A DNA stretch of 64,000 bases, taken from assembly GCF_900169075.1 (NCBI RefSeq), contig NZ_LT827015.1, forward strand, positions 558,001 through 622,000, given 5' to 3'. This DNA comes from Chryseobacterium phocaeense. Lineage in GTDB: Bacteria; Bacteroidota; Bacteroidia; Flavobacteriales; Weeksellaceae. The position numbers and the translations under genes are program-made. This document shows, in pieces, positions 8,650 through 24,203 of this stretch (its first letter is position 1; each line of letters begins with the position of its first letter). The notes under the pieces were generated by a model, which made no database searches, had not been told where the DNA came from, and was given only the letters and a program-made list of their open reading frames with translations.

Positions 8650-9846
8650 TCATTTAGAAGTATATCCGTTTCTGGCCGCCTGGTCGATGATGGACCTTTG
8701 AATGGCTTTTCCAAGATCATCAGAATCTGCGCCGCCCCGTTTTTTCATTTCAGCATCAATATATTCCTGGCGTTTTTTGGAGAGTTCTTCAATTTCTTTC
8801 TGGATCTTTCCCCGTTCTGCGGATTTTACAGCGACTGCTTTTTTAATCTCCTCCTTACTTTTGCCTTTCAGTTCTGCAGGCAGGGCATCATCTTTAACTG
8901 TAGCGATAAATCCTGCATCTTTTTCTGCCTTGTCTACCAGATCCCAGTGGTCGTTTTGATAGGCATTCTTCCTGGACTTGGCTACGGTTCTTTCCACGTA
9001 GTTAGATACGGATTGTACTTCAGCATTTTTGTCCTGAGCAACCTGTTTAAGCTTGTATTCGGAGCCGTGGCTTCCGTAATAGATGTAAGTGTCATTCAGT
9101 CTGGCGTTGCATTCGGAAATCCTGATGTCGTAAGGCGTTTTAATGTAGATCACCTTCTTGTCGCTGTCTATATTGAAGTACTTACCGCCTCCCACTGTCG
9201 CTCCGTTTTGCCAGAAAGTCTGGGTTCCTTCTTCCCGGCTTCCGCAGAAAATAGTGTTGGTATAGATGTTTTTATTTTTGGCCTTTGAAATCACTTCTTT
9301 ATAATCTATTTTTCCCTGATCGAACGATTCATTTCCGGCAATATAGATCAGTTTCATGCTTTTCTCGTTTCCGTCCCAGTTCAGGTTCATCGAGGCATCA
9401 CGGATCACTGCTCCGCAATATTCATTTCCGCCGTTGGTCCTTAATGCGAATAATTTTTCAGAAACCAGGTCTAGATCCTGGGTCAGAGGGGTCACCTGGC
9501 GGATATAATTTTCGTCCCGGATACCGTCGTTTCCATATTCATAAAGGGCAATTTCCACCTGTGGGGCCTGTCCGTTGTATTTCAGAGTGGTCAGGGTGTT
9601 GACGATGCTCCATAGTCTGGATTTCGCCTGATCAATCAGCCCGTCCATACTGTTGGAAGTGTCCAGCAGCAGGGCTACCTGGATTTTATTGTCTTTTCCA
9701 ATTGTTACTGTTGGGTTCACCGAGGCATTTTGTACCTGTGTTTCCCGGTCTGATCTGTTGCTGTTTGAACATCGGATGTCTGATAAATTGCCGGAGCTTA
9801 AAAATGCTGCACCGGCGGCTATTGTTAAAATTTTTAGAGTGGTCAT
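8650..9846 (-). CDS. VWA-domain protein, exported
   Basis: 398 residues. A hydrophobic N-terminus (ILTIAAGAAFLSSG) is followed by a von Willebrand factor A domain whose metal site begins DTSNS at residues 62-66 (DxSxS). The domain continues with IALYEYGND, LRTNGGNEYCGAVIRDA and LIYIAGNE. The last 120 residues are charged and probably coiled (GKIQKEIEELSKKRQEYIDAE). Family members bind metal and proteins; in this context an envelope role is inferred. It starts 19 bases after the DUF4139 gene ends, so the two probably form an operon read from 11470. Confidence 0.85.
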   Translation of the reverse strand: MTTLKILTIAAGAAFLSSGNLSDIRCSNSNRSDRETQVQNASVNPTVTIGKDNKIQVALLLDTSNSMDGLIDQAKSRLWSIVNTLTTLKYNGQAPQVEIALYEYGNDGIRDENYIRQVTPLTQDLDLVSEKLFALRTNGGNEYCGAVIRDASMNLNWDGNEKSMKLIYIAGNESFDQGKIDYKEVISKAKNKNIYTNTIFCGSREEGTQTFWQNGATVGGGKYFNIDSDKKVIYIKTPYDIRISECNARLNDTYIYYGSHGSEYKLKQVAQDKNAEVQSVSNYVERTVAKSRKNAYQNDHWDLVDKAEKDAGFIATVKDDALPAELKGKSKEEIKKAVAVKSAERGKIQKEIEELSKKRQEYIDAEMKKRGGADSDDLGKAIQRSIIDQAARNGYTSK

Positions 9847-11470: not shown

Positions 11471-11530
11471 AGTATATTATTTTAAATTCCTGTAGTAAAA
11501 TTATCAGTATTTAAGGCCGAAAACCGGAAG

Positions 11531-11558
11531 ACTTGGTGAAACCGGGCTTTCACTTGGT
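11531..11558. promoter_or_regulatory. Candidate LytTR-type operator, copy 1
   Basis: ACTTGGT at 11531-11537 and again at 11552-11558 gives a 21-bp period. The spacer ends GAAA...CTTTC. It lies 61-88 bp before the DUF4139 start, just upstream of a -7-like TAATTTTA (minus strand). Confidence 0.6.
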
Positions 11559-11582
11559 AAGCTGAAAAACCGTTTGGAAAAA

Positions 11583-11605
11583 GAAAAACAGCCCTTTCGG
11601 ACTGT
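11583..11605 (-). terminator. Terminator of the SIMPL gene
   Basis: On the minus strand, ACAGTCC, a GAAA loop and GGGCTGT are followed by TTTTTCTTTTT, 18 bases past the SIMPL stop. Confidence 0.7.
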
Positions 11606-11623
11606 CTCTTAAATCTGTTAATT

Positions 11624-12298
11624 CTAAAGGATTTCGTATCTTGTTTTGATGCTGTATTTCAGCTTGATATTCTCAATATTGTCAAAGGAGAATTCTACCG
11701 GAGCATCCGCCGCTTCCAGCTGCACATTTCCAAGACTTCTTTTATAGGCTGCAGGCATCACCATATCACTGGTGTAGTCTTCAATTTCTACGATCTCAAG
11801 AGGAGCTCCTGTTTTTTTACCCATACTTTCCAGCAGATAGTCTGCCTTTTCTTTGGCGGCTTTCAAAGCATTGATCTTAACGGTCTTTCTGAAGTCTGTA
11901 ATTCTGGTGTTTTTTACTTCGGCTATGCTCAGGTTGCTTACCCATTTCTGGTTCAGGTCTTCAAATATTTTACTGATGTTGGCTTTCGTACTGGCTTTAA
12001 ACTGGTAGTTCTTCATAAACTTTCCGCTTTTTGCATATACATTCTGGTACATCGACTTGAACTTGATATCCTCGTTCTTTACCCCGTCATTTTTCAGGGT
12101 TTCCATCAGTTTCTTTTCATTGTCTGCCAGATCGTTCTTATTTTCTGCTTTGATGCCGATGCTGAAGATGATTTCATCCGGTTCCACTTCCATTTCTGCA
12201 ATCCCTGTAACTTCAATGGCATTTTTCTTTACTTCCTGTGCATTTGCAAAACTTCCCAGTGTAAAGATCCCGATTAATAAAAAATGTCTCAATTTCAT
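11624..12298 (-). CDS. SIMPL-domain protein (DUF541), exported
   Basis: 224 residues with a signal peptide (MKLRHFLLIGIFTLGSFANAQ), then a SIMPL domain: IEVTGIAEMEVEPDEIIFSI, LMETLKNDGVKNEDIKF, and the conserved ALKAAKEKADYLLESMGKK helix before the last strands. SIMPL proteins are periplasmic or surface proteins, often linked to oxidative stress or envelope function; the mechanism is unclear. The promoter region resembles that of the DUF4139 gene: the same 21-bp-period direct repeat 60-87 bp upstream, and a matching TAATTTTACT box. It is flanked by terminators and is probably monocistronic. Confidence 0.9.
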   Translation of the reverse strand: MKLRHFLLIGIFTLGSFANAQEVKKNAIEVTGIAEMEVEPDEIIFSIGIKAENKNDLADNEKKLMETLKNDGVKNEDIKFKSMYQNVYAKSGKFMKNYQFKASTKANISKIFEDLNQKWVSNLSIAEVKNTRITDFRKTVKINALKAAKEKADYLLESMGKKTGAPLEIVEIEDYTSDMVMPAAYKRSLGNVQLEAADAPVEFSFDNIENIKLKYSIKTRYEIL

Positions 12299-12357
12299 AA
12301 TTTCTTGTTTTAAATTCTGAAGTAAAATTACGGCGATACCGAATCGAAAACCGGGAA

Positions 12358-12385
12358 ACTTGGTAAGTAAGGGCTTTCACTGGGT
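12358..12385. promoter_or_regulatory. Candidate LytTR-type operator, copy 2
   Basis: ACTTGGT at 12358-12364 and ACTGGGT at 12379-12385, 21-bp period. It lies 60-87 bp before the SIMPL start. The spacer again ends GGGCTTTC. Confidence 0.6.
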
Positions 12386-12392
12386 GGAGGAT

Positions 12393-12422
12393 AAAAAAAA
12401 GACAATCCGGTAGGGGACTGTC
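12393..12422 (-). terminator. Terminator of the TPR regulator gene
   Basis: On the minus strand GACAGTCC, a 6-base loop and GGATTGTC are followed by eight T, 33 bases past the stop at 12455. Confidence 0.8.
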
Positions 12423-12454
12423 ATTAAAAATTCAAATGGTTGGGCTGGAAATAA

Positions 12455-14179
12455 TCAGTCTGTTAACTGTTTGATAAAGGTATTCAGGTTTTCATTTTTA
12501 TCAAGACCCAACTTGGTTTTGATTTTTGTTTTGTATACCCTCGCGCTGCCTTCTGCAATATTCTCCAGCATCGAAATTTCTTTGGAAGAAAGATTAAGCT
12601 TGAAATACACGCACATTTTTAATTCCTGCCGGGTGAGAGCCGGGAACTTTCGGGCAAGGCTTTCCGTGAACTTTTTGTTCTCCTCGGAGCTGTCGTCCAT
12701 AAAATCATAATTCTTTTTATTGATCTGAAGCAGGTTATTGATTTTAAACTGAAGGTCCTTGATCACCTCCTCGGCATCAATGTTTTTAGATTTTTTCAGG
12801 TTCTTCAGATTTTCCAGAAAGGCTTTTTCAGTTTCTGTCTTAAGATGGAGGTTAAGGTGCAGGTTCTGTACCTTTTCCTCGTAAAGCTTAATATCGGATT
12901 CTAATATTTTTCTGTTTTTTTCGAAAATAATTTTCTGATTCTGCGCAATTATTTTTTCTCTCCTGCTTTTATTCCTGGCACTCAGGATAATCTGTATGAA
13001 AATAATCACCAGCAAAATACTTACTGTAACCACGATCCATATATTCCTTTTATAAGCAGATATCTCATCATTGTATTTGTAATCAATGCTTTTGACCATA
13101 TAGCCGGTAAGCATATCTGAATTTTTGTTGAAATTTTCTTTATTCTTCTGTTCCGTTACAACGTGTAGTGAGTCTAGTTTTTTTGAGAAATATTTAAGGT
13201 TTTTAAGATCATTGAGATTGGCGTAATAGTTTTTAATAATCTCAGTGGATTTATAAATGTCTGAAACGTTTTTCAGTTTCGGTTCTATACCTGAAAGATA
13301 TGAAATAATCCTGCTTTTTTTTTCCGTTTCACCCGTTTCCGAATATAGATTGTAAAGCCGCTCAGCCGTAGTTATTGACATAGAATATTCCCCGTTTTTT
13401 TTACAGAATTCCAGTTCTTCCAATAACAGGGTTTCAGCTTCCGGATAGTTTTTAATTTTATACAAATACAAGCCTAATGACCCTTTTACATAGTGAAGAA
13501 ACATTTGTTCCTGATGAGTAGGTTGAGGCTTTGCACCAAGGATATCAATGGCTTTCCTTGCCTCTGAAATGGCTTTGGGCATATTATTCATCTGATCATA
13601 GCACATACCAAAATTGTTGTGCATAGATGCAATATAAAGAAGATCACTTTTTTTATATGTTTCCAGAGCTTTTTGAAAATAATAAATAGCTTTAGCATAA
13701 TCTTTCCTTGTATAATACCATTTTCCTTTTGCATGGTAAATATGTGGAAGGAAGTATCTCTTTCCCGTTTTTTCATCAATTCTGATCGCTTCATTAAGGA
13801 AGCTGAGGGATTGATTCGGAGAAGTATATTCTGTTTGAAGGGCCAGGTAGAAATTGGAGGCAATGGTTATATACTCGTATCGGCCGTCATTGATTTTTAA
13901 CAGTTCGTAAGCCCGGGGGAAGTGTTTGTCGTTTATTCCATCCATCTTGTAATAATCTGCAAAAAACTGGACATATACGCTGCTGATGAGATAGAGGTCA
14001 TCATTACTTTTCTTATACTTCGCAAGCTCTCTTCTGTAGATGTCATTAATTTTTTTCGGCTCCAGGTAAAAAGCAGAAACTTCCTTATCGAGCTGTTGAA
14101 GATAGGCGTTTCCGTCTTCCCTTCGGGAGTTGCAGGAGTAGACTAAAAGAAAAAAGAACACGAACTGATAGATTTTCAT
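12455..14179 (-). CDS. TPR-membrane-HTH regulator, lipoprotein-like
   Basis: 574 residues. The N-terminus MKIYQFVFFFLLVYSCNSR has a lipobox-like VYSC. About 330 residues of tetratricopeptide repeats follow (for example HIYHAKGKWYYTRKDYAKAIYYFQKALE). Then come one transmembrane helix (NIWIVVTVSILLVIIFIQIIL), a coiled coil, and a C-terminal LuxR-like helix-turn-helix (FPALTRQELKMCVYFKLNL then SSKEISMLENIAEGSARVYK). This places sensing outside and DNA binding inside, an arrangement common in Flavobacteriia. It is divergent from the first fibre-like gene, which it may control (inference). ATG at 14179 is chosen so the signal sequence is N-terminal. Confidence 0.85.
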   Translation of the reverse strand: MKIYQFVFFFLLVYSCNSRREDGNAYLQQLDKEVSAFYLEPKKINDIYRRELAKYKKSNDDLYLISSVYVQFFADYYKMDGINDKHFPRAYELLKINDGRYEYITIASNFYLALQTEYTSPNQSLSFLNEAIRIDEKTGKRYFLPHIYHAKGKWYYTRKDYAKAIYYFQKALETYKKSDLLYIASMHNNFGMCYDQMNNMPKAISEARKAIDILGAKPQPTHQEQMFLHYVKGSLGLYLYKIKNYPEAETLLLEELEFCKKNGEYSMSITTAERLYNLYSETGETEKKSRIISYLSGIEPKLKNVSDIYKSTEIIKNYYANLNDLKNLKYFSKKLDSLHVVTEQKNKENFNKNSDMLTGYMVKSIDYKYNDEISAYKRNIWIVVTVSILLVIIFIQIILSARNKSRREKIIAQNQKIIFEKNRKILESDIKLYEEKVQNLHLNLHLKTETEKAFLENLKNLKKSKNIDAEEVIKDLQFKINNLLQINKKNYDFMDDSSEENKKFTESLARKFPALTRQELKMCVYFKLNLSSKEISMLENIAEGSARVYKTKIKTKLGLDKNENLNTFIKQLTD

Positions 14180-14669
14180 AAACCGATTTTTTACTTTCTG
14201 ATTATATATATACACACTACATACAAGATAAGTCTACCTTTTTGATTTTCAATTTATTTTAAATGCAGAACCATTTTCAGTTAACATTATTTAAGAACTA
14301 ATATACTGATAATCATTTTTTTTTAACAAATAATCATTAACAAATTTAACATAATAATCTGATATAAATAAAATCATTGAAATACATGTATTCGTTGAAA
14401 TATATCCATCAGACGTTTAATAGGATTGTAAACGTTTGTTATTTTGTATTTTGCTGATTATCAGAATTGTGTAATTATAATTGTTAACATTTTTTCTTCA
14501 TTTATCCTTTATTGTATAACACAAATTAACAGGTGAAAATTGCAGACCTGAACAGACATGCTATAATTTTGGCAAAAATAAAAAGCGGTAAAACCAACAG
14601 TAAAGTGACAGCCTGTTGAGTTAATGAATTGTCCCGGAAAAATAACAATACACAAAAATAAAATTAGCT
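14180..14669. other. 490-bp divergent control region
   Basis: Non-coding and AT-rich, between the TPR regulator and the first fibre-like gene. It has two opposed copies of TGATTATCAG (minus at 14306-14315, plus at 14455-14464). From the GTTAAC at 14483 to the promoter at 14571 it is visibly similar to 17726-17814, upstream of the third fibre-like gene. Confidence 0.5.
14540..14571 (+). promoter_or_regulatory. Promoter of fibre-like gene 1
   Basis: TTG at 14540-14542, 21-base spacer, TAATTTTG at 14564-14571 (TAnnTTTG). The 5' leader would be about 93 bases long. Confidence 0.5.
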
Positions 14670-15431
14670 ATGAAAGTAAAATTATTCTGTTTAATGCTAT
14701 GGCCTGCCGTTTTTTTCGGACAGGTAGGTATTAATAAAGACAATCCTCAGGGAACCTTTGACATTACCGCTAAAAATGCCACCGGAACTTCTACGGATGT
14801 AGACGGAATCCTGATTCCCAGAGTAGACCGGCAACGCGCCCAGAGCATGACCGGCGTTCAGACCTCCACCATGGTATATGTGAACAGCATTGCTACGGGA
14901 ACACAAACGGGAACAGCTGCTCATATTGATGCAGTCGGCTATTATTATTTTAACGGCACTGTTTGGGTAAAGCTGGAAAGTCCGGCGCCTGATGCATTTA
15001 TTCCCAAAATGGTTGCGGCGGGAAGAACTACTGCCACTATGAATATTACAGGCGGAACAGGATTCAATTCGCTGAACTTTGCGTCTGTGGGGGCTAATGA
15101 CGGTAACTGGAATACGGCCAATAATACATATACGGTTGCAACTGAGGGATATTATCAGTTTTCTTTTACAGCATCCGTTAGGCCCAGTAAGGCGGCGAAC
15201 CACGCAGGCTTTCTTATATCAGTTACTGGTTTAGCGGTTTATGAGATTGCAACCCTGCATAATGCTGATCCTAATTTCTTTGTAAACAGAGGCGGATCAA
15301 TTATTTTGTACCTGGCCGCTAACTCTGCTGTGAGGTTTGGTTTAAATGGATGTAACGGATGTAATACTCCGGCTGAGACCTACCAGGTTGCACCCGGGTC
15401 TACATTTGCGATCACTGCGCTGGGGAATTAA
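14670..15431 (+). CDS. Secreted fibre-like protein 1, C1q-like C-terminus
   Basis: 253 residues. A signal peptide (MKVKLFCLMLWPAVFFGQ) is followed by a conserved N-terminal module starting VGINKDNPQGTFDITAKNAT and ending YYYFNGTVWVKLE at about residue 107. The C-terminal 140 residues look like a C1q/TNF jelly roll (TVATEGYYQFSFTASVRP ... FAITALGN). Such domains trimerise and bind ligands in other proteins. The module is shared with the next two genes, which carry different C-termini. No phage genes surround it. There is no type IX sorting domain; surface or secreted location is inferred from the signal peptide. Confidence 0.8.
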   Translation: MKVKLFCLMLWPAVFFGQVGINKDNPQGTFDITAKNATGTSTDVDGILIPRVDRQRAQSMTGVQTSTMVYVNSIATGTQTGTAAHIDAVGYYYFNGTVWVKLESPAPDAFIPKMVAAGRTTATMNITGGTGFNSLNFASVGANDGNWNTANNTYTVATEGYYQFSFTASVRPSKAANHAGFLISVTGLAVYEIATLHNADPNFFVNRGGSIILYLAANSAVRFGLNGCNGCNTPAETYQVAPGSTFAITALGN

Positions 15432-15776
15432 GGATGTGAGGAGGAGCACAGAAATAAAAAAAACGAGATTTTTTTTTACTTTTTCATTGACCAGCAGGTG
15501 ACGGTTTTTTGAACGTTTTGCGAAAAATCAGATTACCTGCTGTATCTGAAACAGCAGAAATTTCTTTCCGCGGTCAGAGTAAAAGTATTAAAATACGGAA
15601 AACATGGTGAGCAGCCGGCATGGAATAATTATTCTGTAGGGTCTGTAAAAATATCAGTTGATTAATGAATTGTATGAAATTCATACAGCATTATTCTGAC
15701 ACAGTTATAAGGTTAAATTCATAAAAAAATATAAAATACACTAAGAAAAATAAATATACTACAAACACACTAAGCA
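15432..15776. other. 345-bp spacer between fibre-like genes 1 and 2
   Basis: No ORF. A weak A-run/T-run palindrome near 15456-15478 could terminate gene 1. Nothing else recognisable. Confidence 0.35.
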
Positions 15777-17381
15777 ATGAAAGTAAAATTATTCGGATTA
15801 ATGCTTCTCCCTGCTGTTTATTTCGGGCAGGTAGGCATAAACACGGCAAATCCTCAGGGAACTTTTGACATTACTGCCAAAAACGCCACAGGAACCTCCA
15901 CAAACACAGACGGGATCCTTATCCCGAGGATAGACCGACAGAGAGCCCAGAGCATGACCGGGGTGCAGACCTCCACCATGGTATATGTGAACAGCACTGC
16001 CACAGGAACACAGACGGGAACCGCCGTTAATATTGATGCCACGGGCTATTATTTTTATAACGGTACTGTATGGGTGAAGCTGGAAAACCCCAATAATGCA
16101 GCCGCAGGGAACAACATCTACAATGGCAACGGAACGCTTACCAATAACCGTACGGTAACTCAGGGAGCCAATACCCTGGCCTTCACCGGAACAGCAACTA
16201 ATGCTTTTTCCGTAGACGGTACCACATTTTCCGTGGATGCATCGAATAACAGGGTGGGAATTGGAACATCAAGTCCAAATTTCCCGCTGGATATCAGAGG
16301 AGCAGGATATGGCTTCCAGCAGAGCAATGGAACTGTTGATATAAGAACCTGGATAGGAACCGGCTCCGGAAGTGCTGTCCCTTCCGCTTATATAGGAACG
16401 AGTAGCGGCCATCCTTTGGATCTGATGACCGGCGATAGCTCCAGGTTAAGGGTAGCCACAAACGGTAATGTGGGCATCGGGACCATGAACCCGGAAACCA
16501 GGCTGGATATCACCGCTGCTGCCGGGAGCAATACCTTTGGATTTCAGCATACGGACGGCACTATCAAACTGAGAAGCTATGTAGGAAGCGGTTCAAGCAA
16601 CGGAGGAACCCGTGCTGCATGGTTTGGAACTGTCAGCAAGGATAATCTTGATTTTATGACAGAAGATACTTTCAGAATGAGATTAGATACGAGCGGTAAT
16701 TTTGGCGTGGGTACCTATACCCCACAGAGAAAAGTTCATGTAAACGGAGGTCTTCAGGTAACCGGTGAGCTGAATGTAGGCGGTAGCGGCGCTACGGCCG
16801 GAAGCGCCGGTACCGCAGGGCAGGTGCTTGTTTCAAAAGGCGCGGACGCTGCTCCGGCCTGGGAAAATTATCTGGTAGGAAACACTACCAATGTAGGACT
16901 ATACATGCAGGCCACCGGAGGCTCTGATATTGTATGGAACAATAATACCGGATGGACTACAAATGTTCCGTCAGCTATTGCGCTGAACGAGAGTTCAGAT
17001 CCTAATGGGGTGTATGATCCTGCTACAGGTATTATCACCATAAAAGAAAACGGGATCTACATGTTCAGTACTGTTGTAAGTCTTTATGTTTCGGGGACGA
17101 ATACCTTTGACGGGAGATATGGAATTTTAAAATCTTTTATGTCTGTAGCTCCCGCCGGCAGCACTACATATACCAACTATCTGGCTGAAGATAACGCGGT
17201 TGTTTTAAAAGGAATTTCTAATGCTACCATCCCTACAAGCGTAAATATGACCATTCCTTTACATACGGGCGATAAGGTGAGGCTTAATTTCTACACCACA
17301 ACTACAAATGACATGTCTAATGATCCAAATACCATTAAAATTAATAAAAGTAATTCTGTAATCAGGATGTATAAGCTGTAG
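15777..17381 (+). CDS. Secreted fibre-like protein 2, repeats plus C1q-like C-terminus
   Basis: 534 residues. Signal peptide (MKVKLFGLMLLPAVYFGQ), then the conserved N-terminal module (about 19-107) and a linker ANTLAFTGTATNAFSVDGTT. Three fibre repeats follow, each opening with a VGIGTxxP-like turn (RVGIGTSSPNFPLDIRG, NVGIGTMNPETRLDI, NFGVGTYTPQRKVHV). The C-terminal 145 residues form a C1q-like domain (NGIYMFSTVVSLYVSG ... MYKL). The first half is nearly identical in DNA to gene 3 (compare 16090-16490 with 18255-18665), a sign of recent duplication or gene conversion. Likely an exported trimeric fibre; target unknown. Confidence 0.8.
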   Translation: MKVKLFGLMLLPAVYFGQVGINTANPQGTFDITAKNATGTSTNTDGILIPRIDRQRAQSMTGVQTSTMVYVNSTATGTQTGTAVNIDATGYYFYNGTVWVKLENPNNAAAGNNIYNGNGTLTNNRTVTQGANTLAFTGTATNAFSVDGTTFSVDASNNRVGIGTSSPNFPLDIRGAGYGFQQSNGTVDIRTWIGTGSGSAVPSAYIGTSSGHPLDLMTGDSSRLRVATNGNVGIGTMNPETRLDITAAAGSNTFGFQHTDGTIKLRSYVGSGSSNGGTRAAWFGTVSKDNLDFMTEDTFRMRLDTSGNFGVGTYTPQRKVHVNGGLQVTGELNVGGSGATAGSAGTAGQVLVSKGADAAPAWENYLVGNTTNVGLYMQATGGSDIVWNNNTGWTTNVPSAIALNESSDPNGVYDPATGIITIKENGIYMFSTVVSLYVSGTNTFDGRYGILKSFMSVAPAGSTTYTNYLAEDNAVVLKGISNATIPTSVNMTIPLHTGDKVRLNFYTTTTNDMSNDPNTIKINKSNSVIRMYKL

Positions 17382-17945
17382 AGCAATTAATCTCCGGGGC
17401 GTTATAATGGAATATGCAAAGTTCTAATTCCAGATAACCGAAACGGATTGTTTATTCTGCCATTATAAAAACATAAAAACGGCTGCGGAAAATAATCCTT
17501 TTAGCAGTAGTGCTTTTAGTTTTTTGCAGGGAGCAGGCAGGTTTCAGTTAAGATCATTTTGTACAAAACGGAAGCCTGCTTCTTTCTGAAAAGGAATTAT
17601 ATCTTGCGGATCAGAATAAAAAGACCTTTTTAAAATGCCGGAATAAGCAGCAGATTGTGATAATGAAAATATTAACAGATTATTGCTTTTATGGCACTGA
17701 TTTATAAATGGTTGCATTATGTATAGTTAACTTTTTTTCTCCATTTTTCCCTGTTCAGATAACATTCTATTAACAGGAAAATATGAAAGAGATTAATAAA
17801 AGACCCTAGTTTTGACAAAAATTTTACAGGACGGAACGGAAAGGAATGATCCGGATACCTACCAGAGCCCTCAACATTAAAATATACTATTAAACTTAGC
17901 CAATTAGATAAATTGAATTTTAACCTAAATAAAATACATAAGGAA
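17382..17945. other. 564-bp spacer upstream of fibre-like gene 3
   Basis: No convincing ORF. AGCAGGC at 17531-17537 and GCCTGCT at about 17575 pair over a long loop. From 17726 onward it resembles the upstream region of fibre gene 1, ending in a -7 box at 17807. Confidence 0.4.
17807..17814 (+). promoter_or_regulatory. -7 box of fibre-like gene 3
   Basis: TAGTTTTG fits TAnnTTTG. It occupies the same place in the aligned upstream block as TAATTTTG at 14564 before gene 1. Leader about 125 bases. Confidence 0.5.
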
Positions 17946-19265
17946 ATGAAAATTAAAGTATTCGCTTTGATGCTGCTGCCTGCAGTATACTTCGGTCAGG
18001 TAGGAATCAATAACACAACCCCTCAGGGAACCCTTGACATTACCGCAAGAAATGCAACAGGAACCTCTACCGACAGGGACGGGATCCTTATCCCAAGGAT
18101 AGACCGGCAGAGAGCCCAAAACATGACCGGGGTGCAGACCTCCACTATGGTGTATGTGAACAGCATTGCCACCGGAACACAGACGGGAGCCGCCGTTAAT
18201 ATCGATGCCACGGGCTATTATTTTTATAACGGTACCGTATGGGTGAAGCTCGAGAACCCTACTAATGCGGCGGCGGCAGAAAACATTTATAATGCCAACG
18301 GAACGCTTACCAATAACCGTACGGTAACCCAGGGAGCCAATACCCTGGCCTTCACCGGAACAGCAGCGAATGCTTTTTCCGTAGACGGAACCACATTTTC
18401 CGTGGATGCATCGAATAACAGGGTGGGAATTGGAACATCAGGTCCACTTACCCCGCTGGATATCAGAGGAGAAGGATATGGCTTCCAGCAGAGCAATGGA
18501 ACTGTTGATATAAGAACCTGGATAGGAACCGGCTCCGGAAGTACTGTCCCTTCCGGTTATATAGGAACGAGAACCGAGCATCCTTTGGATCTGATGACCT
18601 TCGATAGCTCCAGGTTAAGGGTAGCCGCAAACGGTAATGTGGGCATCGGTACCATGAACCCGGAAACCCGATTACATGTGAGAACCGCAAATAACAATTA
18701 CGGCTTTCTGCATACAGATGGAACTATCAGGATAATGAGCTATGTAGGATCCGGGAGCTCAAATGGGAATGTCCAGGCAGGCTGGATCGGTACAGAATCT
18801 GATACTCCGCTAGAGATTATGGTCAGGGATACTCCACATATACACATTAATAATTCAGCTGGCGGTTTCAGGGTAGGTATAGGTACCACCAATCCTACTC
18901 AACACTTGCACGTGATCGGAAACATTCTGGCTTCCGGGACCATCACCCCGTCAGATATCAGGATCAAAAAAGAGATCCGGGATAACACCTATGGGCTGAA
19001 TGAGGTCCTAAAGCTGCGCACCATTACCTATAAATATAAGGATGAAGCATTGAGCAGGGACAAAAAAGTAGGGTTTGTGGCACAGGAAATCCAGAAGGCA
19101 ATGCCGGAGCTGGTAACCACAGCCAATGACGAAATGAAAACTTTAGGGGTGAACTATGCGGAAATGACCGTGGTTCTTACAAAAGCAGTTCAGCAGCAGC
19201 AGGAGAAAATCAGCAGGATGGAAGAAGAGCTGAAAGCACTGAAGGCACTGATAGAAAAAAAATAG
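17946..19265 (+). CDS. Secreted fibre-like protein 3 with S74 chaperone domain
   Basis: 439 residues from the ATG at 17946 (MKIKVFALMLLPAVYFGQ signal peptide; an in-frame ATG 33 bases earlier would bury it). The N-terminal module and fibre repeats are near-identical to gene 2 up to about residue 240. The last 105 residues are a Peptidase_S74 intramolecular chaperone: ITPSDIRIKKEIRDNTYGL, YKYKDEALSRDKKVGFVAQE, then a coiled coil ending EELKALKALIEKK. In phage tailspikes this domain trimerises the fibre and cleaves itself at a Ser-Asp pair; the SD in TPSDIRIKK is the candidate. A UUCG terminator follows. Confidence 0.88.
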   Translation: MKIKVFALMLLPAVYFGQVGINNTTPQGTLDITARNATGTSTDRDGILIPRIDRQRAQNMTGVQTSTMVYVNSIATGTQTGAAVNIDATGYYFYNGTVWVKLENPTNAAAAENIYNANGTLTNNRTVTQGANTLAFTGTAANAFSVDGTTFSVDASNNRVGIGTSGPLTPLDIRGEGYGFQQSNGTVDIRTWIGTGSGSTVPSGYIGTRTEHPLDLMTFDSSRLRVAANGNVGIGTMNPETRLHVRTANNNYGFLHTDGTIRIMSYVGSGSSNGNVQAGWIGTESDTPLEIMVRDTPHIHINNSAGGFRVGIGTTNPTQHLHVIGNILASGTITPSDIRIKKEIRDNTYGLNEVLKLRTITYKYKDEALSRDKKVGFVAQEIQKAMPELVTTANDEMKTLGVNYAEMTVVLTKAVQQQQEKISRMEEELKALKALIEKK

Positions 19266-19313
19266 ATTAATTCCATTTCCATATTTTTTTCGATTCTATT
19301 AACATGAATGATG

Positions 19314-19345
19314 TAAAGCTTATCTTCGGATAAGCTTTATTTTTT
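19314..19345 (+). terminator. Terminator of fibre-like gene 3
   Basis: The 11-bp perfect stem TAAAGCTTATC/GATAAGCTTTA has a cUUCGg tetraloop and six T. Confidence 0.92.
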
Positions 19346-19352
19346 AGAAGCA

Positions 19353-19380
19353 ACTGGGTGAAACAGCACTTTCACTTGGT
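19353..19380 (+). promoter_or_regulatory. Candidate LytTR-type operator, copy 3
   Basis: ACTGGGT at 19353-19359 and ACTTGGT at 19374-19380, 21-bp period. It lies 59-86 bp before the kinase GTG at 19439. The spacer GAAACAGCACTTTC has the same GAAA...CTTTC ends as copy 1. Confidence 0.6.
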
Positions 19381-19438
19381 AAAGAATAGAAGAGGATCCG
19401 TAAAGATTTGCTTACTTTGCAGTATAGATCTGAAATCC

Positions 19439-21217
19439 GTGAAAACAGTTTTTAAAATATTTTTCATCTTCATTATGGCTGCAGGAAATTCCTGTCCGGC
19501 ACAGGATTCCACACGGGTTACGCAGGCCTATAAATCTTCGGTAAGGCTGAAAAGAGCCGTAGACAATAATGATGACAAAGGCGTTGCAGACAGCTATATG
19601 GGTATTGCCAACGATTATTACAACCAGGGGAATTATGCTAAAAGCGAAGAGTTTCTGATAAAAGCCAGAACGATCTACAAAAACCTTAACGACAAAAAAA
19701 ACCTGGAATCCGTTACCCGGAAAATTGCCCAGTCCCAGGAAAAGCAGAATAAAATAACCCCTGCCATCAGCAATTACAGCATGGCCGCCGAGATGAGCTA
19801 CAACGAAAAGAACAGAGCCGTGAATGCCAATGATGCCGCCAGGCTCTCTTCTCCCAATGTTGAGCAAAAGGCAGAAGCCATCCAGGAAAATATCAAACTC
19901 AATCTTAAAGCAAAAGATAAAGGCGATCTGGCCGCAAACTACAGTCAGCTGGCCGATGTGAACATCCAGCAGAACAATATTCCCAAAGCGGAGGAAAACC
20001 TGAACAACGCCTATGTGCTTTCTAAAAAGGAGGCACCGCAGCAGGCTCTGGAAATCAATCAGAAGCTGACGAATTTCTATGTAGAAAACCGGAATTTTGA
20101 AAAAGCCATAGAAGCCAAGAAGAAAGTATTGAAAGAAGATTTCGTTAAGGAAAATTCCCAGGAAAAAGTGAATCAGATTCAGGAGCTTGCGGATATTTAT
20201 ATTAAGAAAAATGATCCTGAAGAAGCGGTAGCCTTATTAAAAAACGCTTATGGAATTGCCCTGGAAAAAGGACATACACTGGAAGCCCGGAAAAGTGTAA
20301 AACGGCTGGACAGCCTTTATAATATAACGGGAAATACCGGTGCTTCAGTAGCATTGTACAGGGATTTCCTCGGAAAACTTCCGGATCTTGTCTCCAAAGA
20401 CAGAAGCCTTGTAGATAACAAAATACTGGAAGATACCGAACAGCGGATCTCACAGCTGGAAAAGGAAAAAGAACTGAAGGATGCGCTGATCCGGAAGAAA
20501 AATGTATTTAATTACAGCCTGATCGGAGCTTTGGTTCTGCTGACAGGTTTGATCATCTTTATTTTCAGAACCCTGAAAAAAGTTCAGATCAAAAATAAAA
20601 AAATTGCCCTGCAGTCGCTGAGGCGTGAAATGAACCCTCATTTTATCTTCAACAGCCTGAACAGTGTGAACCATTTTATTGCAACCAATAACGAGCTGGA
20701 AGCCAACCAGTATCTGACCAAATTCTCAAAGCTGATGCGAGGTGTGATGCAAAATTCTGCCGAAGATTTTATCCCTTTCCAGCAGGAGCTGGATCTTCTC
20801 CAGAATTACCTTGCCCTCGAAAAAACACGTTTTGCAGATAAATTTGACTATGAAATTAACGTAGACGAAAGCCTGAATACGCAAAGCCTGAAAATTCCTG
20901 GGATGCTGATTCAGCCGTTCCTTGAAAATGCCGTGTGGCACGGACTCCGTTACAGAAGTGATAAAGGATTTTTAAAACTTGATTTTGAAAAAGAGGATCA
21001 TCACCTGAAAATCACCATTGAAGATAATGGAATTGGTATTGAAGAAAGCAAAAAGCAGAAAACCCAGCATCAGAAAACGAGGGAAGGCCGTGGAATGAAA
21101 AATACCATGGAAAGAATCAAGCTGCTGAATGACCTATACCACCAGGATATCCGGTGTAAGGTGACTGATAAAAACGGTGAGCAGGGAGTTCTGGTGGAGA
21201 TCAGTTATAAAATTTAA
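19439..21217 (+). CDS. TPR-containing sensor histidine kinase (LytS/YehU type)
   Basis: 592 residues from the GTG at 19439. The N-terminus MKTVFKIFFIFIMAAGNSCPAQ is a signal peptide. TPR repeats fill about 25-340, a transmembrane helix (YSLIGALVLLTGLIIFIF) lies at about 358-375, and the His_kinase domain carries the phospho-acceptor H401 in NPHFIFNSLN. The ATPase N-box reads IQPFLENAVWHG, and DNGIG and GRGMKN follow. The frame is open to 19358, but that start would lie inside the direct-repeat operator, so 19439 is preferred. The likely partner is the LytTR regulator at 23469, three genes downstream. Confidence 0.9.
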   Translation: MKTVFKIFFIFIMAAGNSCPAQDSTRVTQAYKSSVRLKRAVDNNDDKGVADSYMGIANDYYNQGNYAKSEEFLIKARTIYKNLNDKKNLESVTRKIAQSQEKQNKITPAISNYSMAAEMSYNEKNRAVNANDAARLSSPNVEQKAEAIQENIKLNLKAKDKGDLAANYSQLADVNIQQNNIPKAEENLNNAYVLSKKEAPQQALEINQKLTNFYVENRNFEKAIEAKKKVLKEDFVKENSQEKVNQIQELADIYIKKNDPEEAVALLKNAYGIALEKGHTLEARKSVKRLDSLYNITGNTGASVALYRDFLGKLPDLVSKDRSLVDNKILEDTEQRISQLEKEKELKDALIRKKNVFNYSLIGALVLLTGLIIFIFRTLKKVQIKNKKIALQSLRREMNPHFIFNSLNSVNHFIATNNELEANQYLTKFSKLMRGVMQNSAEDFIPFQQELDLLQNYLALEKTRFADKFDYEINVDESLNTQSLKIPGMLIQPFLENAVWHGLRYRSDKGFLKLDFEKEDHHLKITIEDNGIGIEESKKQKTQHQKTREGRGMKNTMERIKLLNDLYHQDIRCKVTDKNGEQGVLVEISYKI

Positions 21218-21456: not shown

Positions 21457-22152
21457 ATGACTACCGAAAACAAAACGGCCAGACAGGCAGGATTCCTTTA
21501 CCTTATTGTTGTATTGACTGGGCTTTTCAGCTTAATGTATGTACCCTCGAAGCTTATCGTGCGGGAAGATCCGGCCCTTACTTTTCAACAGATTTTCCAA
21601 TCCTCACAACTTTTCAGGTTAAGTATTGCCGGAAGCATGATCTGCTATATTGCCTTTACACTGCTTCCCCTTGTTCTTTACAGATTGTTGAAAGACGTCA
21701 ATGGAGCTTACGCAAAGCTCATGGTGATCCTGGCATTGATCAGTATTCCCATTTCGTTTCTCAACTTACAGAATAAATTTTCTGTGCTCACGATCGTTGA
21801 AGGAGCCGGATATTTAAAAGCCTTCAATGCAGAGCAGTTGCAGGCACAGGTGATGTTTCTTTTGAATAGCTACAACAAAGGAATTTTAATTGTTCAGATC
21901 TTTTGGGGGCTTTGGCTTTTGCCATTTGGATACCTGGTCTGTAAATCCGGTTTTTTACCCAGAATTTTAGGAGTTTTTTTAATGCTGGGATGTGTAGGCT
22001 ATGTCCTCAATGTACTGGGAAGGACCATTATTCCTGATTTTTCAGACTACGCCATATCCGGCTATATAACGCTTCCTGCTTCAATCGGTGAAATAGGAAT
22101 GTGTCTATGGCTGCTGATTGGCGGTGTTAAAAACAGAAAACAGACCAATTAA
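21457..22152 (+). CDS. DUF4386 family membrane protein
   Basis: 231 residues with about six hydrophobic segments; inner membrane. It opens MTTENKTARQAGFLYLIVVLTGLFS and has the pattern of DUF4386, a family of unknown function common in Gram-positive bacteria and Bacteroidota. The C-terminus GEIGMCLWLLIGGVKN fits. It precedes another small membrane protein by 21 bases, so they are probably cotranscribed. It sits between the sensor kinase and the response regulator without an evident link to either. Confidence 0.75.
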   Translation: MTTENKTARQAGFLYLIVVLTGLFSLMYVPSKLIVREDPALTFQQIFQSSQLFRLSIAGSMICYIAFTLLPLVLYRLLKDVNGAYAKLMVILALISIPISFLNLQNKFSVLTIVEGAGYLKAFNAEQLQAQVMFLLNSYNKGILIVQIFWGLWLLPFGYLVCKSGFLPRILGVFLMLGCVGYVLNVLGRTIIPDFSDYAISGYITLPASIGEIGMCLWLLIGGVKNRKQTN

Positions 22153-22173
22153 CCAAACAAAAAATACTTCATC

Positions 22174-22590
22174 ATGAATACTTCTGCAAAATTTGAAGAT
22201 GCGAAAGTGAATATCAGAATGATACTTTCAAGTCTCTGGGCTGCTGTCACATTGTGCTATCTCTACGGCGATTATTTTGAATTATATGTTCCTCAGAAAG
22301 CAAAAGGCCTCGTAGAAGGAACCAATCTGCTGGATACCCCTGTGAAATTGTTCATCGCGGCGTTTGCACTCTCGCTTCCGGCTGTGATGGTTTTTCTATC
22401 TCTTATTGTAAAACCGCAGGTCAACAGAATTCTTAATATTAGTTTAGGAATATTTTTTACAGCGGTCATGCTGCTTATCGCGGTGACTTCCCTCACGGCA
22501 TGGCGTGCCTTTTATGTTTTCCTGGCCCTGGTGGAAAGCTTCATCACGATACTCATCGTGGTCTATGCCTGGAAGTGGAAACGGGTCTGA
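22174..22590 (+). CDS. Four-helix membrane protein, DUF6326-like
   Basis: 138 residues, four hydrophobic helices, with the conserved first-helix stretch LSSLWAAVTLCYLYGDYFELY. This resembles the DUF6326 group of small inner-membrane proteins; function unknown. It follows the DUF4386 gene by 21 bases, suggesting one transcript. The C-terminal AWKWKRV is basic and probably cytosolic. Confidence 0.65.
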   Translation: MNTSAKFEDAKVNIRMILSSLWAAVTLCYLYGDYFELYVPQKAKGLVEGTNLLDTPVKLFIAAFALSLPAVMVFLSLIVKPQVNRILNISLGIFFTAVMLLIAVTSLTAWRAFYVFLALVESFITILIVVYAWKWKRV

Positions 22591-22690
22591 AGGGTGATTG
22601 GGTTCAGGTTTTGTCCGGAAATAATCCTGTAAGCCAAATATTTTTTATTTTTACATGAATATCCGGATATTTTACCGGACTCAATTGAAA

Positions 22691-23410
22691 ATGAACAAAT
22701 ATGTATTTATTGCGATACTGATATCTCTATGGACAGGAACCTTGCAGGGACAGGAGATGAATATCGACAGGTTTGATAAGATGGTAAAAGCCCTGAAGCT
22801 CGATAAAACCAGAATCAAAGAAGAATTTTGCACCGAAAAGAAAATGCCGGGCGCAGAAGAGTCATACATTGCAGTGCTTCCGGTTCTGCAGGGAAAAGAG
22901 GAGGACGACTTTTTCGTAGTCCGGAATTATATTGTGATCACCAATGAAAATGGTGAAATCAAAAATAAGTATTTCGATCCGGTTGACATTACATCAGACG
23001 CTGTTATGCTCCAAAGTATGATGATAGATACAGGCCTGTACAACATCAGCAGCGGAATCCGCGCTTTTGGCGTAAAAGTAAGTGTCAGGAACGGAAGCCA
23101 GCCCAATCCGTATTCTTCTGAAACGATCTCACTGTATTATCCGGCGGGGCAAACCCTTAAAAAAGTTTTAAATGAATTTGAACTAAGCCGCTACAGTGTC
23201 GAATGGAATACCCGCTGTACCGGTGAATCTGACGATGATACTTCCGTGATTATAATGGATAAGACAAAAACGAACAGCTTTACTGATCTTAAAATCAAAA
23301 CCACCTCGGTCAACAGAAAAACCAAAGATGTAAACGGAGACTGCAAGGAAAACGAAACCTCAAAAACCTCTTACCGCATCTTGAAATTCAAAAACGGCAA
23401 ATACCAATAA
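22691..23410 (+). CDS. Exported protein of unknown function
   Basis: 239 residues from the ATG at 22691. The signal peptide is MNKYVFIAILISLWTGTLQGQ. The rest is soluble, with an acidic Glu/Asp-rich middle (QGKEEDDFFVVRNYIVI) and a Lys-rich C-terminus (SYRILKFKNGKYQ). Cysteines at CTEKK, RCTGES and GDCKEN may form disulphides. I do not recognise the family. It lies 58 bases before the LytTR regulator and may share its transcript. Confidence 0.65.
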   Translation: MNKYVFIAILISLWTGTLQGQEMNIDRFDKMVKALKLDKTRIKEEFCTEKKMPGAEESYIAVLPVLQGKEEDDFFVVRNYIVITNENGEIKNKYFDPVDITSDAVMLQSMMIDTGLYNISSGIRAFGVKVSVRNGSQPNPYSSETISLYYPAGQTLKKVLNEFELSRYSVEWNTRCTGESDDDTSVIIMDKTKTNSFTDLKIKTTSVNRKTKDVNGDCKENETSKTSYRILKFKNGKYQ

Positions 23411-23468: not shown

Positions 23469-24203
23469 ATGAAAATAAAATCCGTAATCGTAGACGATGA
23501 GCTTATAGCCAGAGAAGTTTTGAGAAACTATCTCACAAAATACTGCCCGCAGGTGGAAATAGCAGGCGAGGCTGAAAATATTAAAGAAGCCGTTCCCTTG
23601 ATCAATGAAACCCAACCTCAATTGGTATTTCTGGATGTAGAGATGCCGTTCGGGAATGCGTTTGATGTGCTGGAAGCCACAAAAGATCTGTCTTACGAAA
23701 CTATTTTCATCACTGCATTTTCCCAGTATTCTTTGCAGGCGCTCAATAAATCGGCAAGCTATTATATTTTAAAGCCGATAGATATCCAGGAACTGATTCT
23801 GGCCGTGAATAAAGTCGCTGAAAGCCTTGAAAAAAAGGAAGAAATCAATCGCAATAAAATTCTTCTTGAAAATTTAAAACTGAAACCTGAAAAACAACAA
23901 CTCATTTTACCCACACTTCAGGGGTTTGATGTGGTGAAAACCGAAGATATCCTCAGGCTGCAGGCAGACGGAAATTTTACCCAGGTTTATCTTACGGACG
24001 GTTCCAAAAAAATGGTATGCCGTTTCCTGAAACATTTTGATGATCTTCTGGAGAATCCGTTCGTCAGGGTTCACCGTTCCCACATCATCAACGCAGGCTT
24101 TGTAAAATCTTACCACAAAAGCGGGACGGTCATGCTTTCGGATAATACGGAAATTGAAGTTTCCGGCAGTTTCAAAGACAATTTTCTGAAGGTCTTTTCA
24201 TAG
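23469..24203 (+). CDS. LytTR-family response regulator
   Basis: 244 residues. The receiver domain has acidic pocket D9/D10 and phospho-acceptor D56 in VFLDVEMP, with conserved TAFSQYSLQAL and K in ILKPID. The C-terminal LytTR DNA-binding domain starts near residue 140 (LQADGNFTQVYLTDGSKK, NPFVRVHRSHIINAGFVKS). LytTR domains bind pairs of short direct repeats about two helical turns apart, and three such pairs with a 21-bp period are seen upstream of the DUF4139, SIMPL and sensor-kinase genes. The kinase at 19439 is the likely partner. Confidence 0.93.
   Translation: MKIKSVIVDDELIAREVLRNYLTKYCPQVEIAGEAENIKEAVPLINETQPQLVFLDVEMPFGNAFDVLEATKDLSYETIFITAFSQYSLQALNKSASYYILKPIDIQELILAVNKVAESLEKKEEINRNKILLENLKLKPEKQQLILPTLQGFDVVKTEDILRLQADGNFTQVYLTDGSKKMVCRFLKHFDDLLENPFVRVHRSHIINAGFVKSYHKSGTVMLSDNTEIEVSGSFKDNFLKVFS

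Follow-up and report, generated by a model that had tools for sequence, protein, structure and literature searches.

The AgrA P2/P3 region of Staphylococcus aureus carries LytTR direct repeats between two divergent promoters, with autoregulation and a separate repeat pair for each promoter. The direct repeat of Escherichia coli BtsR has a 21-bp period, and the half-sites of E. coli YpdB are separated by exactly 11 bp. The accessible text of PMC4847170 gives the YpdB repeat as GGCATTTCAT and describes a LytTR site as a pair of 9-11-nt repeats separated by 11-13 nt. Here we describe a set of direct repeats in a 64,000-nucleotide stretch of the Chryseobacterium phocaeense genome (contig NZ_LT827015.1, positions 558,001 to 622,000; hereafter the window, in whose coordinates all positions are given). 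The repeats lie upstream of a DUF4139/MuiA-family gene, a SIMPL gene and a LytS-type sensor kinase gene. We conclude with considerable confidence that they serve as operators for the LytTR response regulator whose gene lies at 23469-24203, and that this regulator takes part in a feedback circuit controlling the kinase operon, the DUF4139/MuiA gene together with the VWA gene downstream of it, and the SIMPL gene.

A sequence-only reading of the window had noticed paired ACTKGGT motifs at an exact 21-bp period in these three promoters. All three pairs are present as claimed: ACTTGGTGAAACCGGGCTTTCACTTGGT at 11531, ACTTGGTAAGTAAGGGCTTTCACTGGGT at 12358 and ACTGGGTGAAACAGCACTTTCACTTGGT at 19353, each with a period of exactly 21. 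The distances to the start codons, given earlier as 61, 60 and 59 bp, recount as 60 nt (DUF4139, ATG 11470), 59 nt (SIMPL, ATG 12298) and 58 nt (kinase, GTG 19439), a difference of counting convention only. The box that the reading assigned to both the DUF4139 and the SIMPL promoter is TAATTTTACT, found on the minus strand at 11503-11494 and 12330-12321, and it resembles a -7 promoter box of Bacteroidetes. The repeat runs on the same strand as the gene at the kinase and on the opposite strand at DUF4139 and SIMPL.

The reading had proposed a search of the whole genome and of orthologous promoters as checks. In the 4,864,679-base genome (~4.86 Mb), ACTKGGT-N14-ACTKGGT has three exact matches, all inside the window, against a chance expectation of 0.11 computed from the window base composition (probability of at least three, 2e-4); the reversed pattern used as a control has none in the same genome. 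The probability that three random sites fall within 7,850 bp is 8e-6. A longer consensus, ACTTGGTGAA-N7-TTTS-ACTTGGT, searched genome-wide with up to three mismatches, returned the same three sites only, and its control returned none. Both searches thus confine the pair to these three promoters. The bare repeat with three mismatches allowed is not enriched within the 64-kb window (8 matches versus a shuffle mean of 11.6), and therefore only the exact form is significant. Since the genome-wide search gives only three sites, the regulon appears small and local, unless more degenerate sites work.

The operator unit is a 10-bp direct repeat, ACTTGGTGAA-N11-ACTTGGTGAA. We examined its anatomy in 104 sites, chosen by a score that included the inner GAAA/TTTC; sites L042 7548 and L090 1480 were dropped before the scoring matrix was built. 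Half-site positions hold 1.2-2 bits and spacer positions 11-17 hold 0.1-0.4 bits. The triplet GAA follows the first half-site core in 88-99% of the sites and the second in 79-82%, the latter positions having been unused in site selection. As it stands after both cores, GAA is the end of each half-site. By contrast, TTT (93-99%) occurs one base ahead of the second half-site, and the first has no counterpart. The inner GAAA...CTTTC symmetry, which the sequence-only reading had left unexplained, can thus be accounted for as two different features meeting, the end of one half-site and the TTT that precedes the next. A role of the TTT in bending the spacer is possible. The 10-bp half-sites, the 11-bp spacer and the period of 21 fit the class rule given in the accessible text of PMC4847170, in keeping with the paired-direct-repeat LytTR architecture proposed before.

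The exact pattern occurs in 26 of 39 genomes searched, namely the own genome, 23/23 same-genus relatives of the first draw (1-3 exact sites each) and 2/15 genomes from other families of the order. The two matches in other families (G028, G037) are without the inner signature and look unrelated. Together, the own genome and the 23 relatives hold 54 sites versus 2 for the reversed control. We fetched the loci of these relatives as pieces of 20 kb, with one of 15.6 kb (L034) that covers the kinase side only. Here the repeats sit at the kinase, SIMPL and DUF4139 promoters, or at the VWA promoter where DUF4139 was not found. From 555 loci with a relative in named genomes, we then kept the 80 best, hereafter the named loci; the titles give Chryseobacterium for 78 of them and no more than Weeksellaceae or Flavobacteriaceae bacterium for the other 2. 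A site lies upstream of the TPR/LytS-type kinase in 80/80, of SIMPL in 76/76, of DUF4139 in 37/38 and of VWA in 12/55. We read the low VWA count as reflecting a gene that usually follows another gene in an operon, as it does in many relatives' loci.

Conservation extends to a second genus (g3), very probably Flavobacterium. An order-wide search of 346 genomes found orthologues at ~70% identity in this genus and at 43-50% elsewhere, and 83 of the 398 genomes drawn from the second genus have an orthologue. A site lies upstream of the kinase in 12/12 of its loci fetched first. These 12 loci contributed to the scoring matrix, which was built from 84 sites outside the genus and 18 within it. Among 20 unseen loci, which were kept outside matrix building yet belong to the same genus as the 12 that contributed, 20/20 have the site, with scores of 32-42 versus a null maximum of 15.1 (from 100 loci, each reversed and each put through one mononucleotide shuffle). 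The site is therefore kept at orthologous promoters across the genus and beyond it.

Some of the more distant loci keep parts of this pattern. In G350, a member of another family whose regulator is 45-46% identical, an exact site stands beside a VWA gene. Where the regulator is 45-50% identical, the half-sites are changed and the 21-bp phase is kept in several loci. At L148:3596-3668, between the kinase gene and a divergent gene of 338 amino acids that precedes VWA, four half-sites (AATGAGTAAA and variants) stand in exact 21-bp phase, which 0/300 shuffles match; this array suggests that larger arrays exist in some genera. Next to VWA, L150 and L151 have a single pair each, of the AATGAGTRAA type, with a score attained by 0.7% and 0.3% of shuffles, respectively; in L146, a single pair precedes another gene (1.3% of shuffles).

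The site goes with the LytTR orthologue. For 120 genomes of the family, we defined the orthologue as a LytTR protein of at least 65% identity with E below 1e-100. It is found in 13/120 genomes and the pattern in 20/120, of which 13 show the inner GAA...TT signature and 7 lack it (G142, G136, G111, G099, G042, G102 and G089). Signature site and orthologue occur together in 12 genomes, one without the other in 2 and neither in 106 (Fisher p 1.6e-14, uncorrected for relatedness). The signature filter was applied after seeing the 20 matches; unfiltered, the counts are 12 both, 1 orthologue only, 8 match only and 99 neither. In G117, the orthologue (65% identical) is accompanied by a changed repeat, AATGGGT-N14-AATGGGT. 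G108 has sites and no regulator was found; its fetched piece ends at residue 507 of the 619 of the kinase, and because the contig begins 197 bases beyond the fetched piece, it ends inside the kinase gene. Three genomes of the same genus (G080, G134, G148) have neither a LytTR orthologue nor a site, and two more (G279, G328) have no LytTR orthologue at E 1e-60.

The sequence-only reading had also named a LytTR regulator and its likely kinase in the window, and profile matches support both family assignments. The protein encoded at 23469-24203 (plus strand) has a receiver domain (PF00072, 60.2 bits versus a cut-off of 30.2) followed by a LytTR domain (PF04397, 44.0 bits versus 22.6), and is the proposed operator-binding protein. 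The partner kinase matches PF06580 with 76.5 bits versus a cut-off of 25.2 and is thus of the LytS type. Kinase and LytTR genes are adjacent or near each other in the loci of the 23 relatives. The best-scoring NCBIfam model for the regulator is PRK11697, although its score of 100.5 bits fails the BtsR orthologue cut-off of 246.

The position of the operator relative to the promoter is fixed. In nearly all SIMPL, DUF4139 and VWA promoters, the proximal operator edge lies 27 nt from a TAATTTTA-type box, which is present in 76/77, 36/37 and 12/12 cases, respectively (shuffles, 3-4%). Of the kinase sites, 53/85 have TATCTTTG (shuffles, 7%) and 27 more have TTACTTTG by a looser pattern, all 27-28 nt from the edge. 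The gene-by-gene count used TAnnTTT[ACG], and the two-sided count below used the looser T[AT]nnTTT[ACG]. Published work gives a TAnnTTTG-like -7 consensus for housekeeping promoters of Bacteroidetes, numbered -12 to -5 (PMC6847099, PMC9723704). With this numbering, the proximal operator edge lies near -40, just above the -33 element. The -7 boxes of the window deviate from the consensus at one base each, in a comparison that covers the -7 box alone.

The polarity of the operator is equally constant. Counted as site-gene pairs, its strand is that of the kinase in 85/85 and opposite to SIMPL in 77/77, to DUF4139 in 37/37 and to VWA in 12/12. In the named loci, a -7-like box stands at 25-29 nt on at least one side of 214/215 sites (random rate, 3.1% per side) and on both sides of 48/215, in 43/80 loci. 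In the second genus, 30/32 loci have a single operator with boxes on both sides at 27-28 nt, and the divergent gene across it from the kinase is mostly VWA. These observations led us to propose that one LytTR operator activates two divergent promoters with mirrored 27/28-nt spacing, as a polar array contacting RNA polymerase from either end, and that the regulon grows by uninverted duplication, in at least two genera; we hold this proposal to be evenly poised between right and wrong. Probably, an ancestral two-sided operator shared by VWA and kinase was duplicated without inversion as SIMPL and DUF4139 joined.

Part of the genus may have a further target. Across the named loci, a TAAGTTTG box stands 27-28 nt from 38 sites, on the flank facing away from the kinase polarity. 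In genome G139 (L109, L160), the gene across a two-sided site from the kinase encodes a second SIMPL-domain protein (L109:8237-9202; 44.2 bits versus a cut-off of 25.2), divergent from the kinase, which is likely to be such a target. The kinase promoters themselves differ in their leaders. In 53/53 of those with TATCTTTG (L154-L233), the ATG lies exactly 4 nt after the box, and a leaderless kinase mRNA is therefore predicted; the accessible text of PMC9723704 gives leaderless mRNAs as 5.5% in F. psychrophilum. The kinase promoter of the window has the TTACTTTG box and a longer leader.

We propose the following mechanism. Two LytTR domains would bind the two copies of ACTTGGTGAA, which a distance of exactly two helical turns places on the same face of the DNA. 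Bound in this way, the dimer would sit just upstream of the -33 element, with its edge at about -40, and most likely activates RNA polymerase. Phosphorylation of the regulator would come from the TPR/LytS-type kinase, with its TPR part probably in the periplasm. As the kinase promoter carries an operator, the circuit would feed back on itself; with 2.25 kb between the kinase and regulator genes, the feedback is likely to reach the regulator only if the two are co-transcribed. In this genome, the targets of the circuit would be the kinase operon, SIMPL, and DUF4139/MuiA along with the VWA gene that follows it. At a two-sided operator, the same binding could serve both the promoter box facing the kinase and the one facing the divergent gene (mostly VWA). 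Judging by the families predicted for the gene products, the circuit may respond to envelope stress, as the sequence-only reading proposed.

Operators of this form could be read in other ways. The sequence GTGAAA-N6-TTTCAC, a perfect inverted repeat found in operators 1 and 3, could be read as a palindrome by some other dimeric regulator, the direct repeat being a by-product of the near-palindromic ACTTGGT. The central TTG of both half-sites is nevertheless kept in direct, not inverted, polarity, and outside the dyad the second half-site, too, is followed by GAA. Only 61% of the sites have C at position 21, and operator 2, with TAAG for TGAA, has no full dyad. Moreover, the half-sites of G117 changed together and the extra half-sites of L148 were added in the same direction, while kinase and LytTR genes are present in the site-bearing fetched loci, bar the short G041 (L090) and G108 pieces. 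On half-site polarity and the GAA outside the dyad in the 104 sites, we reject this palindrome reading, which we consider quite improbable. Within a locus, all copies share one strand, which is what duplication without inversion would give, so that the three repeats might be copies of one duplicated promoter, alike by descent without function. Yet drift has left the spacer with 0.1-0.4 bits, against 1.2-2 bits retained in the half-sites, and conservation reaches another genus and another family, which makes descent alone barely conceivable. Somewhat less remote, and still unlikely, is that the LytTR regulator binds and represses, its phosphorylated form switching off the kinase and the targets in negative autoregulation. 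Against this, the operator ends ~27 nt upstream of the -7 box and leaves the -33 and -7 elements free, a usual position for an activator, and the accessible text of PMC5552118 describes E. coli BtsR and YpdB as promoter activators.

Several points weigh against an activating LytTR circuit conserved as we describe it. The regulator gene lies 2.25 kb after the kinase gene, with three genes between, and the two may not be co-transcribed. The 80 named loci are nearly all from one genus and overlap the genomes used for matrix building, and one DUF4139 gene of 38 among them is without a site. G041, with a regulator 77% identical, has no site at the kinase and an exact site at a DUF4139 gene on another contig. 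The changed repeat of G117 scores 14.7, below the null maximum, though it is rare in shuffles (0.3%). Among the 8 loci with regulators of 45-50% identity, L149 and L152 lack any such repeat, and that of L153, threefold and placed between VWA and kinase, is weak (2% of shuffles reach it). Taken together, the sites confined to these promoters genome-wide, kept in relatives and co-occurring with the LytTR orthologue support the LytTR-regulon interpretation in its main point.

The locus is arranged as follows. Operator 1 (11531..11561, plus strand; 31 bp comprising half-site, N11 and half-site; matrix score 37.7) lies upstream of the minus-strand gene for a DUF4140/DUF4139 protein of the mucoidy inhibitor MuiA family (TIGR02231; 9866..11470), whose -7 box TAATTTTA (11496..11503, minus strand) is 27 nt from the operator edge on the gene side. 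The gene for the VWA-domain protein (8650..9846) starts 19 bp downstream on the same strand; some relatives have an operator at VWA itself, and in the second genus the VWA and kinase genes diverge. Operator 2 (12358..12388, plus strand; score 25.6) is the most degenerate copy and precedes the minus-strand SIMPL/DUF541 gene (11624..12298), with its -7 box TAATTTTA at 12323..12330 (minus strand), 27 nt from the edge. Operator 3 (19353..19383, plus strand; score 38.5) precedes the plus-strand kinase gene (19439..21217), whose box TTACTTTG (19412..19419, plus strand) is 28 nt from the edge. The kinase has TPR repeats followed by one apparent transmembrane stretch, judged by eye; its open reading frame was listed from 19358, and comparison with relatives led us to set the start at GTG 19439.

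Between SIMPL and the kinase, a block of four genes (12455-19265) encodes a TPR protein with a LuxR-like C-terminus, two proteins without a Pfam match and a Peptidase_S74 protein. The block has no match in the fetched loci of the 23 relatives and is probably a lineage-specific insertion. We considered its TPR protein with the LuxR-like C-terminus (by eye; 12455-14215) as the regulator and rejected it, because neither it nor the three genes after it have a match in the 23 relatives' fetched loci, which have the operators and of which one, L034, spans the kinase side only. Between kinase and regulator lie DUF4386, DUF6326 and PA3715-family genes (21457..23410, plus strand). Only some relatives have them, and they are possibly optional members of the circuit.

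The listings from the literature searched, with subscription papers and supplements outside its scope, show no such operator or regulon for this group, and a search by half-site letters returned, among the matches listed, unrelated titles. According to the accessible text of PMC10197871, an F. johnsoniae LytTR gene and the kinase gene with the next tag (FJOH_RS09515/RS09520) were, between them, mutated in 5/5 lines coevolved with Burkholderia thailandensis. The mutation positions reported there neither clearly fit nor excluded the available orthologues; a link to the present system is possible. For a two-component system kept in Chryseobacterium and in a second genus, very probably Flavobacterium, our analysis defines the operator precisely and delimits a regulon that is small and closed. 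It ties DUF4139/MuiA, SIMPL/DUF541 and VWA, families of unknown function, to one sensor, through which a shared role therefore becomes testable.

LytS/LytTR systems are already known as a kind; new here are the redefined operator, the explained symmetry and the proposed two-sided action. Like YpdA/YpdB of Escherichia coli, which uses GGCATTTCAT at PyhjX, the present system pairs a LytS-type kinase with a LytTR regulator and has two 10-bp direct half-sites. Unlike there, the half-site sequence is unrelated, the operator occurs in both orientations relative to the genes, it stands at the kinase's own promoter and at SIMPL, MuiA-family and VWA genes, and the kinase has TPR repeats. BtsS/BtsR (YehU/YehT) of E. 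coli shares the LytTR regulator, with PRK11697 as the best-scoring NCBIfam model; by the cut-off of that model the two regulators are not orthologues, and kinase sensor and targets differ. Finally, whereas the AgrA P2/P3 region has one repeat pair per promoter, the single operator of the second genus has a -7 box on each side.

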